Source: Effusibacillus pohliae DSM 22757 (GTDB lineage Bacteria > Bacillota > Bacilli > Tumebacillales > Effusibacillaceae). From it: a stretch of 64,000 nucleotides of DNA. Below the pieces are notes generated by a model. It was not told the DNA's origin. It ran no database searches and worked only from the letters and a program-made list of their open reading frames with translations. The stretch spans positions 1 through 64,000 of the forward strand of contig NZ_AQXL01000117.1 of assembly GCF_000376225.1 (NCBI RefSeq), written 5' to 3'. Of the stretch, positions 44,264 to 53,391 are shown in pieces; within the stretch, counting starts at the first letter, position 1; the number at the start of each line of letters is the position of its first letter. The position numbers and the translations under genes are program-made.

Positions 44264-44974
44264 TCATAACCGTTTTCTCCACAGCAACAGCAGCCCAAAA
44301 ACCGCCAGCACAAGAGATCCCGCTTGCACCGTCGACATCCCCATCCACTGCCGGTTGGGAAAGTCAAGAAACGAGACCAATATCCCAATCACACCCACAC
44401 CAAAAAGAGACCAGCCCAAACGCTGTACTGTCGGAACCGATCTCCTGCGAATCCCCATCCCCAGCAGGACAAGCGCCAGTCCCCGGTAAAAATGCAACGG
44501 ATGATACGCATGGTTTCCGGCCATAACCCCCCAAGGAAGCAAGGTCGGTTTTCCGAGATCCACCATCAGGAGTTGAGACACGCCAAGGCCGATCAAAATT
44601 CCTGGTACAAATGCGTTTAGCAATTGCAGAAAATTTGTTTCGGAAACCAGCTTCGCCCGCCACATCTTCCATCCCACAAACAGGCCCCCGGCAATCCACC
44701 CCACCAACGCCATGTACGGTGCAGGAACAGCCATAATTGCCCGAAACGAATCTTGAAACAACAGAACCGGGTCAAACAAAATCTGGCCAAATCGCTGCAC
44801 GAACCATCCGATCAACAAACCGGTCCATACTAAATCCACAACCAGCTTGCCGTTACTTCCAACGCGGTCCACATCGCGACGCAAGATTGGCGTCGCTAAG
44901 AAAAAACTTGCCACAAGGGCAAGCAAATGGATTGGAATCGTCAAGATTCCGAGTTGGAGTGCCGTATCCAGCAT
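44264..44974 (-). CDS. Multi-spanning membrane protein, Lgt-like
   Basis: 236 aa, seven predicted helices. The layout and the segment AGNHAYHPLHFYRGLALVLLG recall prolipoprotein diacylglyceryl transferase (Lgt), but the catalytic signature is too diverged to assign that activity. 9 nt after tlpA in the same operon as the HesB-like selenoprotein gene; such Lgt-like/TlpA pairs are probably linked to thiol or sulfur redox outside the membrane. ATG 44974 chosen over GTG 44983 for ribosome-site spacing. Confidence 0.6.
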   Translation of the reverse strand: MLDTALQLGILTIPIHLLALVASFFLATPILRRDVDRVGSNGKLVVDLVWTGLLIGWFVQRFGQILFDPVLLFQDSFRAIMAVPAPYMALVGWIAGGLFVGWKMWRAKLVSETNFLQLLNAFVPGILIGLGVSQLLMVDLGKPTLLPWGVMAGNHAYHPLHFYRGLALVLLGMGIRRRSVPTVQRLGWSLFGVGVIGILVSFLDFPNRQWMGMSTVQAGSLVLAVFGLLLLWRKRL

Positions 44975-44983
44975 GTTCAACAC

Positions 44984-45568
44984 CTATTTTTTTAATAATT
45001 TTTGAATCGCGCGCTCCATGGTGGATTCATTCATCATGCCTTGAAAGCGATCCACAACGATTCCTTTCGGGTCAATGGTTACCGTTGTCGGAATCCCGAC
45101 AGCTTGATAAAGTTCTGCCACCTTTGCTTTGTCATCGAGCAAATTTTGATATTTGACGTGAAATTCCTTCAGAAACTTTTTCGGTCCTTCCGGATCCTGT
45201 TCGCTCGTGGTCATGTTCACGCCAAGGAAAATCACCTTGTCTCCGTACTGTTCCGATTTTTTTACAAGGTCCGGCATTTCGGCGCGACATGGCGGACACC
45301 AGGAAGCCCAGAAGTTGACCAATATCGGTTTTCCCCGAAAATCGCTCAATTTTACAGTCTTTCCGTTCATATCAGTCAATGTAAAATCGGGGGCCTGGTA
45401 GCCGGGAAGCGGAAGTTCCGCCTTTTGTTCCGTACTCGGTTGACCAGTTGCGGCGGTTCCCGCTGAACTGTTGGGTGCTGTCGTATTTGAACCCGCGTTC
45501 CCGAAAATCGCGCATATGGCCAATCCCACAATGACCAATGCACCAACACCTATTTGCCAATTTTTCAT
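44984..45568 (-). CDS. TlpA/ResA-type membrane-anchored thioredoxin
   Basis: 194 aa. N-terminal membrane anchor (about 3-22), Ser/Thr-rich linker, then an AhpC-TSA/TlpA fold with FRGKPILVNFWASWCPPCRAEMP (active site WCPPC) and GIPTTVTIDPKG (cis-Pro). Reduces or oxidises thiols on the outer face, e.g. apocytochrome c or a sulfur carrier. GGGAGGCCACC lies before the ATG. Confidence 0.9.
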   Translation of the reverse strand: MKNWQIGVGALVIVGLAICAIFGNAGSNTTAPNSSAGTAATGQPSTEQKAELPLPGYQAPDFTLTDMNGKTVKLSDFRGKPILVNFWASWCPPCRAEMPDLVKKSEQYGDKVIFLGVNMTTSEQDPEGPKKFLKEFHVKYQNLLDDKAKVAELYQAVGIPTTVTIDPKGIVVDRFQGMMNESTMERAIQKLLKK

Positions 45569-45694: not shown

Positions 45695-45979
45695 TCAACA
45701 AATTGAATCTCTATAAATTTGGAACCCTTTTCCGAACCAAGAATCTTTATAATTAATTTTTAGCCCTTCCATATAGGAAGCTAATCCTGAATTATAAACG
45801 AATTGAATTCCGTCTACTTCCACTTTTTGATCGTGTTCGTTTGTTGACTCCTCCAGAGCCATGCCGTAAGTCGGTCCGCCTCAGCCAACGCCCGCGATAT
45901 ACAATCGGATCATCTGTCCTTTGGGAAAATTGAGTATTTCTTTCAATTTCGCAACCGCTTCAGGAGTGACTTGCAGCAT
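45695..45979 (-). CDS. HesB-like selenoprotein (in-frame UGA = Sec 33)
   Basis: 95 codons including the stop; 94 residues if UGA is read. MLQVTPEAVAKLKEILNFPK...LYIAGVG-UGA-GGPTYGMALEES then KVEVDGIQFVYNSGLASYME, KINYKDSWFGKGFQIYRDSIC, stop. The part after UGA is full, family-like HesB/IscA sequence, and UGA stands where A-type Fe-S carriers have their first conserved Cys (AG.GC.GP). A hairpin at 45845 fits the bacterial SECIS. HesB-like selenoproteins are a known family. If UGA is a stop, only 32 residues are made. Ahead of tlpA, with a CstR-type operator upstream. Whether the genome has selA/B/C is not visible here. Confidence 0.8.
45845..45861 (-). promoter_or_regulatory. SECIS-like hairpin after the UGA codon
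   Basis: Minus strand UGGCUC-UGGAG-GAGUCA: six pairs (one G-U), 5-nt loop with G in its second position, loop starting 26 nt after the UGA. This fits the bacterial SECIS rule of a small G-containing apical loop about 16-37 nt downstream. Confidence 0.65.
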
Positions 45980-46012: not shown

Positions 46013-46030
46013 AATACCCCTATAGGTATT
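46013..46030. promoter_or_regulatory. CstR-type operator upstream of the HesB-like gene
   Basis: ATACCCCTATAGGTAT (arms ATACC/GGTAT, 6-nt centre), 35 nt before the selenoprotein start. Same architecture as the sites at 52896 and 53360. Confidence 0.7.
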
Positions 46031-46073
46031 ATGGTAGTGTTTCACATCTGCTTTGTCAAGCTTTTCCTGGTTC

Positions 46074-46451: not shown

Positions 46452-46543
46452 GTCTTTCAACCTTTCTCCATATTTCTCCAGCTTTAAACAACACGATTTG
46501 GATACGTTATATAACGAATCCCCAGCTGATGCGAGGTGAAAAG

Positions 46544-47624
46544 ATGAAAAACAAATGGACCGCCTTATTCATTTCTTTTATCCTGTACTTGATTCTATTC
46601 GGCCATTTCGCTCCCGTTCGGGCCAATACCGCGAATTCCAAAGCATCTTTCGTGATTCATGAAGTGCATAGTGGAGAAACACTCTATTCCATTTCGGGGC
46701 GTTACGGGCAATCGATTCAAAACATCCGACAGATAAACGGTCTCACAACGGATCGGATTGTTCCAGGGCAATCCCTATTAATCCCAGGCCACACGTTTTT
46801 GGTGATGAAAGGCGATTCGCTTTGGAAAATCGCTGACCGACATGGAATCTCTGTAGATGAACTCATAAAAGCAAACCGAATTGGCGATCCAAACCGTCTT
46901 CAGTCTGAAACAAAACTGCCAGAAACAACTTGATCCGGAGTATTGAACGTCTGGTCACCTCGCAACCATTCAAAGGTGTAAATATTGACTTTGAACAAAT
47001 AAAACCGGTTGACCGCGATGCATTTAACCAATTTATAAAAGAGCTGTCCGGTCGGCTAAAACCTTCCGGATTCACGATTTCCATTGCAGTACCCGCCAAA
47101 CAGGGGGATCGATCGCCGGAATATCTTGCCGCCTACGATTATGCCACATTGGGAGCGACAGCCGATCATGTATTTCTGATGACATATGACTGGCATTGGC
47201 CCGGCGGACCGCCCGGCCGATCGCTCCGATCGACCAGGTACGCGCTACTCTGGATTATGCCGTCAAAACGGTTCCAAAACAAAAACTGTTTCTCGGTATT
47301 GCCATGTACGCCTATGATTGGACCTATTTTCCTGACGGCAAAACGAAAGGAACCGCCTACTCCCAGAACAGGGCGATTCAGATCGCTACACAACATTGGG
47401 CTCCTGTTCAATATGATGGGCGGTCGGCATCCCCCCATTTTGTTTATACCGATTCTTCCGGTCATAAACATGAGGTTTGGTTCGAAGATGCCCGTAGCAT
47501 TATCAAAAAATACCGGCTTGTTCATGAATACGGCATCCGGGGTATGGGCGGATGGAAACTGGGACTTTCCTTTCCGCAAGCGGAAGAAATGCTTCCCCGC
47601 ATGTTTTCAATCGTGAAACCTTGA
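46544..47624 (+). pseudogene. SleL/YaaH-type spore cortex N-acetylglucosaminidase, broken
   Basis: Signal peptide (KNKWTALFISFILYLILFGHF), two LysM domains (VHSGETLYSISGRYGQ; VMKGDSLWKIADRHGI), then a stop at 46931. The GH18 domain resumes in another frame at PFKGVNIDFEQIK (catalytic Glu of DxxDxE), having lost roughly 150-170 residues, and shifts frame again near 47215 (WPGGPPG to PIAPIDQVRATL) before ending GMGGWKLGLSFPQAEEML. So one deletion plus one frameshift. Cortex lysis must rely on other enzymes elsewhere. Confidence 0.85.
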
Positions 47625-48331: not shown

Positions 48332-48601
48332 CTACCGGCTCTTGACGAGCAGATCGACAGCCTCTTTGATCACTTCATCAGGATTTTGTCCGTTTTTTAG
48401 CTCTTCACGAATGCATTGCTCCAAATTGCTTGCCACAATCAGTCCAATGACGCGATCGACGGCCGAACGGATCGCTTGCAATTGTGTGACGACATCCTTG
48501 CATTCCTTGTTTTGTTCCATCATGGCGTGAACGCCTCGAATCTGCCCTTCGATCCGCCGCAGGCGGTTTTTGACCGAATCATTGTAATCCAATGCAGTCA
48601 T
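48332..48601 (-). CDS. cstR: CsoR-family persulfide sensor, CstR type
   Basis: 89 aa all-helical CsoR-family repressor (VKNRLRRIEGQIRGVHAMMEQNKECKDVVTQLQAIRSAVDRVIGLI). The two reactive Cys are present (KECKDV and LEQCIREE), but the His that CsoR uses to bind copper is Asn here (SNLEQC). Cys pair without the His is the CstR pattern: it senses sulfane sulfur by forming polysulfide links and then frees sulfur-detoxification operons. The nearby TusA/rhodanese/PDO genes support this. Confidence 0.9.
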   Translation of the reverse strand: MTALDYNDSVKNRLRRIEGQIRGVHAMMEQNKECKDVVTQLQAIRSAVDRVIGLIVASNLEQCIREELKNGQNPDEVIKEAVDLLVKSR

Positions 48602-49243: not shown

Positions 49244-49474
49244 TCACTGTCCTTTCTTGACAAAGAAACGGAACACGCCGTTGTCTTCTTCCATTTTGAC
49301 CAGTTCGTGTTTCGTCTGTTTCACCCATCCTTGAAAATCGTTAACCGACCCTTTGTCGGTTGCCTGCAGCTCCATGATTTGCCCGGGTTGCATGCTGTCG
49401 ATCGCTTTTTTCGCTTTTACGATCGGCATCGGGCACGATAAACCCTTTGCGTCAACCACAACATCTGCCTGCAT
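49244..49474 (-). CDS. tusA: TusA/SirA-family sulfur carrier
   Basis: 76 aa. Active Cys in DAKGLSCPMPIVKAKKAID. Carries persulfide sulfur between sulfurtransferases. 29 nt after the rhodanese-PDO gene, in the CstR-type sulfur cluster. Confidence 0.93.
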   Translation of the reverse strand: MQADVVVDAKGLSCPMPIVKAKKAIDSMQPGQIMELQATDKGSVNDFQGWVKQTKHELVKMEEDNGVFRFFVKKGQ

Positions 49475-49503: not shown

Positions 49504-50634
49504 TCAACTGTGATGAATGGCGCAACGATTCGGTCCGATTTCGAGCTCTGTTGCCTTATCCGGCGTGACTTCGACGGTTCCCCGGTTGATTTCCACGATT
49601 TCCTCATAGTTCGGAGGCGTTGCTCCAACCGTTCCGGCCACTTTTTCGGTGAACACTTCCCGGTCCTGCGTCCGCATAATTTCATTGCTTCTGCGGATGT
49701 CACCCAGTGTCGCCCCCACATAGCCGTTTTCGTTGATTTCCTGAATATCGGCATAGTGAGTCGGCAACACAATGATATCATCCGACAACGCGGCGATTTT
49801 CCTGAACACGGTGTCATACAGCGCCTGCGCCCATTCGCGGGCTTTGCCACCGAGGTCGGGCCGCCCGAGCCCACCTACGAAAATGGTGTCGCCCGACAGC
49901 AAATATTTGTCGTTCACCAGGAACGACACGCTTCCCGGCGTGTGGCCCGGGGTCGGAATGGCCAGGACTTTGACGTGAACCGCTCCGAAGTTGATTTCGT
50001 TGTGTTTTTCCAGTGGTTCGAACGGCACGTCGGAGCCTTGCATTTCGCTTGAGGAGATATAGTACGTTGCCCCTGTCTTGTCGGCCAGTTCCCGGCCCCC
50101 GGAAATATGATCTGCATGCAGATGCGTATCCATCACGTGCACAATCCTTACGTTTTCTTGCTCGGCAAGCCGGGTGTATTCTTCCACGTGCCGGTTGGGA
50201 TCCACCACCATTGCCTGCCCTTCCGAGATCACCATGTACGACAGACAACCTTTCGCCAGTCGGTTGATTTGAATCAGCTTCATGTTTTCGTCGACCGCAA
50301 TGGTAACCGGATGGTAAAACTGGCTCCACTCCAGCATGCCTTCGCCCAGGTAACTGACCTGGTACCCTTTTTCGTCCAACATCTCGGCCACCATTTCGGC
50401 AGCGCCGCCTTTCGCGCAAATCACGACGATTTCCGTATCTTTCGGAAGATCCTCGTAATTTTTGGGATCGTCATCCAAAAAATCGAAGTACGGAATGTTT
50501 ACCGATTGAATGTTTTTTGCTTCTATTTTCCAATCGTGATATTCGTCCGGGTTCCGTACATCGAGAATAAACACCCGTTTTCCGCTGTTGATTTTGTCAT
50601 GCAACTGTTTCGCGTTGATTCGGGTGACCGCCAT
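49504..50634 (-). CDS. cstB: Rhodanese-persulfide dioxygenase fusion (CstB-like)
   Basis: 376 aa. N-terminal rhodanese (about 1-105) with active loop CAKGGAA, then an ETHE1-type metallo-beta-lactamase domain: THLHADHISGG, PTPGHTPGSV, SGDTIFVGGLGRPDLGG, and LPTHYADIQEINENGYVGATLGDI. It would oxidise glutathione- or low-molecular-weight thiol persulfide to sulfite and pass sulfur through the rhodanese. Domain order is Rhd-PDO, opposite to staphylococcal CstB, so it is a functional analogue rather than an orthologue. The symbol is given on role. Confidence 0.87.
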   Translation of the reverse strand: MAVTRINAKQLHDKINSGKRVFILDVRNPDEYHDWKIEAKNIQSVNIPYFDFLDDDPKNYEDLPKDTEIVVICAKGGAAEMVAEMLDEKGYQVSYLGEGMLEWSQFYHPVTIAVDENMKLIQINRLAKGCLSYMVISEGQAMVVDPNRHVEEYTRLAEQENVRIVHVMDTHLHADHISGGRELADKTGATYYISSSEMQGSDVPFEPLEKHNEINFGAVHVKVLAIPTPGHTPGSVSFLVNDKYLLSGDTIFVGGLGRPDLGGKAREWAQALYDTVFRKIAALSDDIIVLPTHYADIQEINENGYVGATLGDIRRSNEIMRTQDREVFTEKVAGTVGATPPNYEEIVEINRGTVEVTPDKATELEIGPNRCAIHHS

Positions 50635-50669: not shown

Positions 50670-51254
50670 TTATGAACGTTTTTCAACGGGTCCCGTCCAT
50701 TCGGACATACCGGGGACTACGTTCTTGACATTTGGGAAACCTTTTTCGCTTAAAATTTGGCAAGCGATATCACTGCGGGTTCCTGTTCGGCAGACAACAT
50801 GGATTTCCTGATCCGCGAACTTTTTCAATTCGCCGATTGTTTCTTCCAGTTTCCCAAACGGAACCGAGATGGCCCCCGGAATGTGGCCAAACGCATACTC
50901 GGCAGGTTCCCGCACATCCACAATGACCGGATTGTCGGTCAGCCGTTGCAGCAGTTCCTCATTTGAAACCACATGCGGGTACCTCTTCTCTGGTTTCAAT
51001 TCGCTCGGATCGGATTTGCGAATATAGTGTTTAAAGACACCTTCTTCCTTGATTGTGCCAACGAACTGGTGTCCCGTTCGCTCCGCCCAACTCTTTATGT
51101 CAGAAACGGATCCCGGGTCGGTTGCCACAACTTCCAACACCTGACCGGGTTCGATCTCTTCAATCGCCTTCTTTGTCCGGACAATCGGCATGGGACACGA
51201 CAGCCCCTTACAGTCGACCGATTTATCCGCCATCAACGAGTTCGTCGTATTCAC
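50670..51254 (-). CDS. cstA: TusA-rhodanese fusion (CstA-like)
   Basis: 194 aa. N-terminal TusA domain (about 8-82, Cys in DCKGLSCPMPIV) and C-terminal rhodanese (about 95-190, active loop CRTGTRS). Staphylococcal CstA has the same two activities in a longer protein. Moves persulfide sulfur between carriers. GTG start behind AAGGGGGAACCCGCG. Confidence 0.87.
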   Translation of the reverse strand: MNTTNSLMADKSVDCKGLSCPMPIVRTKKAIEEIEPGQVLEVVATDPGSVSDIKSWAERTGHQFVGTIKEEGVFKHYIRKSDPSELKPEKRYPHVVSNEELLQRLTDNPVIVDVREPAEYAFGHIPGAISVPFGKLEETIGELKKFADQEIHVVCRTGTRSDIACQILSEKGFPNVKNVVPGMSEWTGPVEKRS

Positions 51255-51267
51255 CGCGGGTTCCCCC

Positions 51268-52050
51268 TTATTTCAGCAAAATATCAGCCCAAATTTTGAT
51301 TGCTGTTGCTACGATCAATACCGCCAAAATCCCCTGTAAAATTTTGGTGTTGACTCGGGTGCTCAGCTTGGCACCGAGGGGTGCCGCCAAAATGCTGGCG
51401 ACCACCATGATGACCGATGGCCAAAACAGCACGTCGCCCGCCATAATTTTTCCCACCGTTGAACCGATTGACGATATGAACGTAATCGCCAGTGAGGAAG
51501 CGATCGTCATACGGGTCGGGATCTTTAGGACCAAAAGCATGATCGGGACCAGTATGAAAGCCCCGGCCGCCCCGACAATCCCGGAAGCGACGCCAACCAC
51601 AAAAGCGGAGATGACCGCAATCGTCCGGTTGAACTGCACCTGTTCAAGCGGGATCTCGTCCAATCCTTTTTTCGGGACGAACATCATGATGGCCGCAATC
51701 GTTGCAAGCAGAGCATAGACAAAATTAATCGTCGCTCCCGACAGAAACTTTCCGCCGTATCCCCCAACAAAGCTGCCGATGATGATGGAAATCCCCATGT
51801 AGGCGACCAATTTGTAGTTGATCACCTTTTCCTTTCGAAGCGCCAGAACGCCGGATATCGTGGCAAAGAAAACCTGTACGGCGCTGATCCCGGACACCTC
51901 GTGCGCCGTATAAGCGGCCACTCCGACAGCCGGAGGAACATACAGCAGCAACGGATATTTGATAATGGATCCTCCAATCCCCACAAGGCCCGAAATAAAT
52001 GAGCCGACAAAACCGATCAGAAACAAAGTGGCTACCAAACCAACCGTCAT
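51268..52050 (-). CDS. tauE: TauE/SafE-family sulfite or sulfonate exporter
   Basis: 260 aa, eight or so membrane helices in two repeats (GFVGSFISGLVGIGGSIIKYP; VVGVASGIVGAAGAFILVPIM). In CstR regulons this family is thought to export the sulfite made by the dioxygenase. 13 nt before the TusA-rhodanese gene. Confidence 0.88.
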   Translation of the reverse strand: MTVGLVATLFLIGFVGSFISGLVGIGGSIIKYPLLLYVPPAVGVAAYTAHEVSGISAVQVFFATISGVLALRKEKVINYKLVAYMGISIIIGSFVGGYGGKFLSGATINFVYALLATIAAIMMFVPKKGLDEIPLEQVQFNRTIAVISAFVVGVASGIVGAAGAFILVPIMLLVLKIPTRMTIASSLAITFISSIGSTVGKIMAGDVLFWPSVIMVVASILAAPLGAKLSTRVNTKILQGILAVLIVATAIKIWADILLK

Positions 52051-52123: not shown

Positions 52124-52519
52124 TCAGAAGGTGACGGTTACGTCGGCATCGTAAGCAAAATCCAGGAATGTTACCGCGCCGCCCACTTCGACCCCGTCAA
52201 TGAAATCCTCTTTTTTCATGCCTGTGACATCCATCGTCATTTGGCATGCGATCAGTTTGACGCCGGATTCTTTTGCGATTTCAACCAGTTCCGGAATGGA
52301 CGGAACATTGGCGCGCTTGAATCCTTCCATGTAATGTTCTTTTCCGGCACCCATCGTCAGCATGTTGGCTGCATCCTTGTGAATGATCGCCAACGCCTCA
52401 AAGGTGAAAAAGATCGCCACTTCCGCCTCGGTCGCCGCCGCAGCGGTTGCGATATTCAACACTTTGTAGGCGGTCTCCAATCCGCCGTTTGATGCGATGA
52501 TTGCTACACGTCTTGCCAT
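52124..52519 (-). CDS. DsrE-family (DsrE2-like) sulfur-relay protein
   Basis: 131 aa, DsrE/F fold: IIASNGGLETAYKVLNIATA, AIFFTFEALAIIHKD, LIACQMTMDVTGMKKEDFID with the reactive Cys in ACQMTMD. Peroxiredoxin-like and DsrE2 members pair with rhodanese and TusA as a sulfur relay. AAAAGGAGAGATGG precedes the ATG. Confidence 0.88.
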   Translation of the reverse strand: MARRVAIIASNGGLETAYKVLNIATAAAATEAEVAIFFTFEALAIIHKDAANMLTMGAGKEHYMEGFKRANVPSIPELVEIAKESGVKLIACQMTMDVTGMKKEDFIDGVEVGGAVTFLDFAYDADVTVTF

Positions 52520-52550: not shown

Positions 52551-52880
52551 TTACAATGAAACTTCAATGTCGCCTTGCCAGGCGTTCATTCCACCCAACA
52601 TGTTTTTCACGTTCCGGTATCCGCGGCTCATCAAATATTCGCAAGCCTTGGCGCTCCGGTTGCCGCTTCTGCAAACCAGGATCGTTTCCTTGTCCGGATC
52701 GATCTCATGCAACCGGTCCGGCAGTTCGGCCAAACGAATGTGTTTTGCTCCTGGAATTTTGCCCCGTGCCACTTCCTGGTGCTCGCGAACATCAATGATG
52801 TTCAATTGTTCTCCGCGTTTCAGCCTCTCGTTCACGTCGTGGGGCAAGATGTTGATCACTCTCGCGGCAGTTTGGTACAT
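52551..52880 (-). CDS. Single-domain rhodanese
   Basis: 109 aa. Active loop CRSGNRSA, preceded by INIIDVREHQEVARGKIPGAKHIRL. First gene of the downstream sulfur operon, directly behind a CstR-type operator 16 nt upstream of its start. Confidence 0.93.
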   Translation of the reverse strand: MYQTAARVINILPHDVNERLKRGEQLNIIDVREHQEVARGKIPGAKHIRLAELPDRLHEIDPDKETILVCRSGNRSAKACEYLMSRGYRNVKNMLGGMNAWQGDIEVSL

Positions 52881-52895
52881 GTTTTCACCCCCATA

Positions 52896-52911
52896 ATACC
52901 CATATGGGTAT
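52896..52911. promoter_or_regulatory. CstR-type operator, perfect palindrome
   Basis: ATACCCATATGGGTAT, 16 bp, between the two rhodanese genes. Confidence 0.8.
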
Positions 52912-52962: not shown

Positions 52963-53340
52963 TCATTCGGTTAACCCTTTATGCCATCCCATGATTCCAT
53001 GTTTTAGATGGCCGATCCTTGTGAACCCGTGTTTTTTTAAAATCTTCGCTGCCTGCATGCTCCGCATGCCGCTCCGGCAAGCCAGAATCACAGTCTTCTC
53101 CGGGTCAATTTCGCCCAAGCGATTCTTCAGTTCGCTCAGGGGCACATTTTTGAATCCCCTGATATGCCCTTGCCGGTATTCGTGTTTTTCCCGGACATCA
53201 AGAAAAATATGTTCTGCGGGACGTTTTAAAAGCTCCACCACCTCCTCCGCCGAAAGGTTCCTGAGTCCCTTGACCGGCATCAGCCGGCTGGCCAGGAACC
53301 AAAAAATGAGAGCGACAACCAGGTATTGCACCCATTCCAA
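52963..53340 (-). CDS. Membrane-anchored rhodanese
   Basis: 125 aa. N-terminal membrane helix (WVQYLVVALIFWFLASRL), rhodanese loop CRSGMRSM. Start is hard to fix: GGAGGTGATC overlaps the GTG at 53352, so the TTG at 53340 with the ribosome site intact is preferred. Confidence 0.85.
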   Translation of the reverse strand: MEWVQYLVVALIFWFLASRLMPVKGLRNLSAEEVVELLKRPAEHIFLDVREKHEYRQGHIRGFKNVPLSELKNRLGEIDPEKTVILACRSGMRSMQAAKILKKHGFTRIGHLKHGIMGWHKGLTE

Positions 53341-53359
53341 GTCAATGATCACCTCCTTT

Positions 53360-53391
53360 ATACCCCTGATGGTATATACCCTGGTAGGTAT
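53360..53391. promoter_or_regulatory. Tandem CstR-type operators
   Basis: ATACCCCTGATGGTAT (53360-53375) directly followed by ATACCCTGGTAGGTAT (53376-53391). Two adjacent sites between divergent genes, so the CcoG-like gene may share this control. Confidence 0.75.

Follow-up and report, generated by a model that had tools for sequence, protein, structure and literature searches.

HesB-like selenoproteins were found by sequence in 2006 (PMC1794560), the one from Methanococcus maripaludis has been labelled with 75Se (as reported in PMC11097638), and a 2026 review lists them under the motif UxGP (PMC13188914); in about twenty years they have not been assigned a function. CstR regulons have been described as the cst operon of Staphylococcus aureus and the cst-like operon of Enterococcus faecalis (PMC5480029, PMC9405070). 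An earlier note on the DNA described here held that HesB-like selenoproteins are known and that placing one behind a CstR-type operator looks new. This agrees with the literature as we found it: the 2006 description exists, and our search, which was thin on subscription journals, turned up no paper linking a CstR regulon with HesB or a HesB-like selenoprotein.

The window, a stretch of 64,000 nucleotides from Effusibacillus pohliae DSM 22757, carries a gene, here called Sec-HesB, that almost certainly encodes a selenoprotein, judging from its sequence. Its features and the genes that follow it are:

45695..45979, minus strand: Sec-HesB gene of 94 codons, from an ATG at 45979 to an ordinary TGA stop (45695-45697)
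45881..45883, minus strand: in-frame UGA (Sec33) in place of the first Cys conserved in the A-type fold, as located by orthologues and phmmer alignment
45845..45861, minus strand: SECIS-like hairpin UGGCUC-UGGAG-GAGUCA, 6 pairs, starting 19 nt after the UGA
46014..46029, no strand assigned: CstR-type operator ATACCCCTATAGGTAT; the genome has four such sites, and the operator precedes Sec-HesB elsewhere too
46031..46059, minus strand: promoter-like site TTGACA-17-TACCAT, 10 of 12 matches (a consensus match only), abutting the operator
44984..45568, minus strand: TlpA/ResA-like membrane-anchored thioredoxin (WCPPC), by profile matches
44264..44983, minus strand: membrane protein, resembling Lgt in short motifs only, with a homologue beside TlpA in genome G009 (locus L208)

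Translated with TGA as U, the gene runs on the minus strand from 45979 to 45695, its coding part ending at 45698; the plus strand of 45695-45979 contains three TGA and two other stops. The earlier note had the reading frame right and gave no strand. The peptide, MLQVTPEAVAKLKEILNFPKGQMIRLYIAGVGUGGPTYGMALEES...FQIYRDSIC, has Sec at residue 33 of 94, and the 61 codons of family sequence said to follow the UGA are there. Directly behind the codon for the C-terminal Cys comes a TGA, as it does in several relatives; others have TAA or TAG. We read it as an ordinary stop; a second Sec after Cys94 is the less simple reading, given the TAA or TAG of other members.

The TlpA-like gene comes next, as had been proposed, and we found nothing resembling a terminator on the minus strand between the two genes, which are probably cotranscribed. 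The third gene does encode a membrane protein, and "Lgt-like" rests on short motifs only, with no Pfam or NCBIfam model matching 44264..44983. In G009 (L208) the persulfide cluster contains both TlpA and Lgt-like genes, and it is plausible from gene order that both belong to the same unit as Sec-HesB here. On the plus strand at 46529-47624 lie a LysM gene and then glycosidase-like fragments spread over different frames, which looks like a broken gene or frameshifts in the assembly.

The pattern ATACC-N6-GGTAT has four sites in the 3.36-Mb genome, all inside 7.4 kb (46014, 52896, 53360, and 53376), and the reversed control pattern has one. The first of them, ATACCCCTATAGGTAT, stands 34 nt before the Sec-HesB start codon, where the earlier note had placed an operator; the other three lie ahead of the rhodanese genes with which a persulfide cluster begins:

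48332..48601, minus strand: CstR-like repressor of the CsoR family (Cys...Asn-x3-Cys), PF02583
48840..49328, minus strand: DUF302 protein, start uncertain
49244..49474, minus strand: TusA, by profile search
49504..50634, minus strand: persulfide-dioxygenase-like metallo-beta-lactamase with rhodanese domain (CstB-like)
50670..51254, minus strand: TusA-rhodanese fusion (CstA-like)
51268..52050, minus strand: TauE exporter
52124..52519, minus strand: DsrE-like protein
52551..52880, minus strand: rhodanese, by reading frame and rhodanese motif CRSGNR
52963..53352, minus strand: membrane-anchored rhodanese
52896..52911, no strand assigned: operator ATACCCATATGGGTAT, by genome pattern search
53360..53391, no strand assigned: tandem operators ATACCCCTGATGGTAT and ATACCCTGGTAGGTAT, by genome pattern search

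The repressor has two Cys and lacks the His ligand, an operator is common to Sec-HesB and the persulfide genes, and Sec-HesB very probably belongs to a CstR-type persulfide regulon. The connection between selenium and persulfides drawn in the earlier note has held up, the operator being confined to the persulfide cluster and recurring in several Bacillota families and the repressor having the CstR-type Asn. For Sec-HesB itself, the reading as a persulfide stress gene rests on the company it keeps, and we infer the binding of CstR.

In the same taxonomic order, the operator stands 26 to 72 nt ahead of Sec-HesB in three genomes (G004, G006, and G011). Six genomes from other families of the class have it upstream of the gene (G671, G715, G571, G561, G494, and G449), and elsewhere in the phylum it precedes Sec-HesB in G347, G369, and L070. 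Four further Sec-HesB genes lie near or inside persulfide clusters, two of them in the same order (G002 and G003) and two in other families of the class (G425, 27 nt after a DUF302 gene, and G553, 22 nt after a rhodanese gene). In G715 (L262), a gene for a thioredoxin of the cytosolic type (WCGPC) starts about 50 nt beyond Sec-HesB, both under one operator; G449 has the operator at Sec-HesB, with no persulfide genes close to it. Of the chalcogen residues, Sec alone is present in every linked member, and the proteins of G011, G425, and G553 have Sec and no Cys at all.

Counted over distinct loci, which were gathered by similarity and are not fully independent, the operator is found just upstream at 13 of 129 Sec-HesB/A-type loci compared with 0 of 44 Cys A-type loci, and the reversed pattern at none. 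By itself the contrast between Sec and Cys loci is modest (Fisher p = 0.04); more weight lies on the low chance expectation, which we estimate from genome counts at about 0.03 operator sites for the 129 upstream stretches. On the tree the link requires seven changes and does not form one clade, so it does not reflect one inherited event. Nor is it general: in a wide scan covering 85,000 species, most Sec-HesB loci had neither operator nor persulfide genes, and this includes the Sec-HesB genes of Fictibacillus, Romboutsia, and Fusibacter. We therefore rejected a family-wide regulon in favor of one limited to certain lineages, and a persulfide role cannot be that of the whole family. In the 16 genomes that we reached through these loci, the operator was often no commoner than the control pattern, and distant operators there were therefore not taken as evidence.

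We imagine that the CstR-like repressor from the neighboring persulfide cluster probably holds Sec-HesB off at ATACC-N6-GGTAT until persulfides or polysulfides oxidize its cysteines, so that Sec-HesB would be made alongside the TauE, TusA, rhodanese, and persulfide-dioxygenase-like proteins. During translation, the hairpin just after UGA codon 33 would guide SelB, and Sec would be inserted at the first Cys position of the family. The selenol of Sec33 may then take sulfane sulfur, which could be passed on or be reduced by a thiol partner, either a TusA/DsrE relay or a thioredoxin. Induction by persulfide and the chemistry of the protein are, like CstR binding, what we infer. The choice of a selenol sulfur acceptor follows from the sulfane-sulfur genes around Sec-HesB and from the thioredoxin after it (in G715, and the TlpA-like one here). 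Taken as a whole, a selenoprotein under CstR control whose Sec receives sulfane sulfur for transfer to thiol partners is, we think with good though not full confidence, the best explanation. The acceptor role of Sec33 is a tentative assignment, a little under an even chance. Somewhat more speculative is a selenium-based persulfide enzyme of several Bacillota lineages, in which an Fe-S-carrier fold would have lost cluster binding, retained one Sec, and turned into a CstR-controlled sulfane-sulfur acceptor or persulfide reductase. A mechanism using a Cys pair through the C-terminal Cys is weakened by the members that lack that Cys; in most members, it could serve as half of a Sec-Cys pair or in cluster binding.

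The protein itself bears on what else it might do. It matches PF01521 at 39.3 bits (cut-off 26.3), and in the phmmer alignment Sec33 falls on the first Cys of two A-type proteins of known structure, HI1723 and AQ_1857; the minus-strand frame thus bears out the claim that UGA occupies the first conserved Cys of a HesB/IscA-type protein. The AlphaFold2 model (mean pLDDT 89.5) has the IscA fold, and SufA was matched as well. Sec-HesB has the A-type fold and a UxGP motif, with Sec in place of the first conserved Cys, and falls short of the cut-offs of two curated NCBIfam models, TIGR01911 (40.1 versus 66.35 bits) and NF038090 (56.3 versus 85 bits), and in the tree it forms its own clade. It is therefore HesB-like in the broad sense only, a distinct subgroup.

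A serious rival, if an unlikely one, keeps the same gene and regulon and makes the protein an Fe-S carrier or repair factor, holding a cluster on the Sec and C-terminal Cys of two subunits and replacing damaged clusters under persulfide stress. The fold suits this (TM-score of 0.84 to Escherichia coli IscA), and what makes it serious is that Cys94 lies near the position of the family's CGC and that most members keep a terminal Cys. Against it, the Cys-x42-44-Cys-Gly-Cys of A-type carriers is absent, leaving Sec33 and the single Cys94; the linked proteins of G011, G425, and G553, having no other Cys, argue against ordinary Fe-S carriage; and another A-type protein of the same genome has the full CGC set. 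A noncatalytic A-type regulator or scaffold of sulfur metabolism, like DsrR of Allochromatium, is improbable: DsrR (2k4z) is among the nearest folds to the model (TM-score of 0.80), but a costly Sec machinery and a codon invariant in orthologues point to a reactive selenol.

The CstR-like repressor, whose gene lies at 48332-48601, has two Cys, with Asn where copper sensors have their ligand His; the fingerprint is NLEQCI, compared with HTRGCV in the other CsoR of the genome, which has the His. The nearest PDB sequences, 7mq1-7mq3, are deposited as CsoR, and 7mq1 has the same Asn-x3-Cys; we take all three to be pneumococcal CstR. It is very improbable that the operator is instead the site of a copper or other CsoR-type sensor, tying Sec-HesB to metals and not to persulfides. 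CsoR-family operators do resemble one another, and the best NCBIfam match of the repressor is RicR, at 55.7 bits versus a cut-off of 175. However, the Asn replaces the ligand His, which is found in the separate CsoR, and all neighbors of the operator are sulfur genes. G002 has a second CstR-like gene (L318:6812-7069) with the operator upstream and a UGA replacing an Arg codon. We considered it as a Sec-containing sensor and rejected this, since the UGA stands for Arg; it is probably a broken copy.

The genome has all that selenocysteine decoding calls for, as the earlier note had suggested checking: selA, adjoined by selD; selB, at 402 bits in a profile search; and tRNA-Sec (selC) with anticodon TCA (UCA in RNA), located, like the A-type paralogues, by family searches. 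The hairpin just 3′ of the UGA has a G near the start of its loop, in keeping with a predicted bacterial SECIS. The 6-bp stem and 5-nt loop stand as first described; the 26 nt given as the distance to its start is instead that to the loop, which lies about 25 to 26 nt past the UGA, the stem beginning at 19 nt. Only 1.5% of synonymous recodings of the same peptide fold as well. Across 22 Sec loci, which are partly related and not independent, the combined p is about 7e-15 against such recodings, and at most of them the hairpin is stronger than nearly all recodings. Across Sec-HesB loci it is conserved: the stem pairs interchange among G-C, G-U, and A-U, and the loop reads UGGA, a loop that the ErpA-like Sec gene of this genome carries on another stem.

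UGA occupies the Sec codon in seven genomes (G000, G002, G003, G004, G005, G006, and G011), G002, G003, G004, G006, and G011 carrying orthologues and G005 a more distant gene. In genus g353 the codon is Cys in G680 and UGA in G599 and G644. Relatives with neither Cys nor UGA, which the earlier note would have counted against it, were not what we saw, orthologues having UGA and the related G680 gene Cys. Over five genomes, E. pohliae included, pN/pS is 0.40 before the UGA and 0.28 after it, so purifying selection acts on the protein sequence encoded beyond it. That the UGA is a true stop with decayed sequence behind it, as an annotation program would imply by ending the protein at residue 32 (the fragment the earlier note expected), has a negligible chance and is for practical purposes refuted by the codon and frame kept across families, the low ratio after the UGA, the hairpin, and the full Sec machinery.

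The genome contains five A-type (PF01521) genes: C108:10854-11153 (L183), Sec-HesB on C117, C129:48104 (L187), C129:52060 (L184), and C131:106226 (L185). In four of the five, UGA takes the place of the first conserved Cys codon, one of these being ErpA-like with its CGC ligands kept; the fifth (LGGCS motif) is the only one with Cys there. The ErpA-like gene of G004, from the same genus, has Cys. In G007 (L036), a HesB-family gene has an in-frame UGA and selB was not found above the cut-off, which would fit an assembly gap, a damaged selB, or a lost ability to decode Sec.

Both the selenoprotein and its regulon are well supported, and Sec-HesB is of a gene class often truncated at the UGA by routine annotation. 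The regulon link makes the function of one branch of HesB-like selenoproteins testable, predicting when the protein is made (persulfide or sulfide stress), which repressor controls it, and what its Sec reacts with. If a selenium-based persulfide enzyme is indeed what it is, that branch gains a role, and selenium is added to a defense pathway so far described with sulfur chemistry alone.

Among described proteins, Sec-HesB shares its fold and the position of the first ligand with IscA, SufA, and ErpA, but lacks their C-terminal CGC ligands. DsrR of Allochromatium vinosum (2k4z) likewise combines an A-type fold with a sulfur-metabolism setting; DsrR presumably has neither Cys nor Sec at the cluster positions, whereas Sec is invariant in Sec-HesB. 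With the HesB-like selenoprotein family (TIGR01911), Sec-HesB shares the A-type fold, the U-x-G-P motif, and a Sec in place of the first Cys, and it differs from that family in scoring below the cut-offs, in forming its own clade, and in standing under a CstR-type operator. Like the cst operons of S. aureus and E. faecalis, this locus joins a CstR-type repressor to persulfide dioxygenase, TusA/rhodanese, and TauE genes; unlike those operons, which are described without a selenoprotein (PMC5480029, PMC9405070), it adds Sec-HesB, DUF302, DsrE, and a TlpA-like gene.
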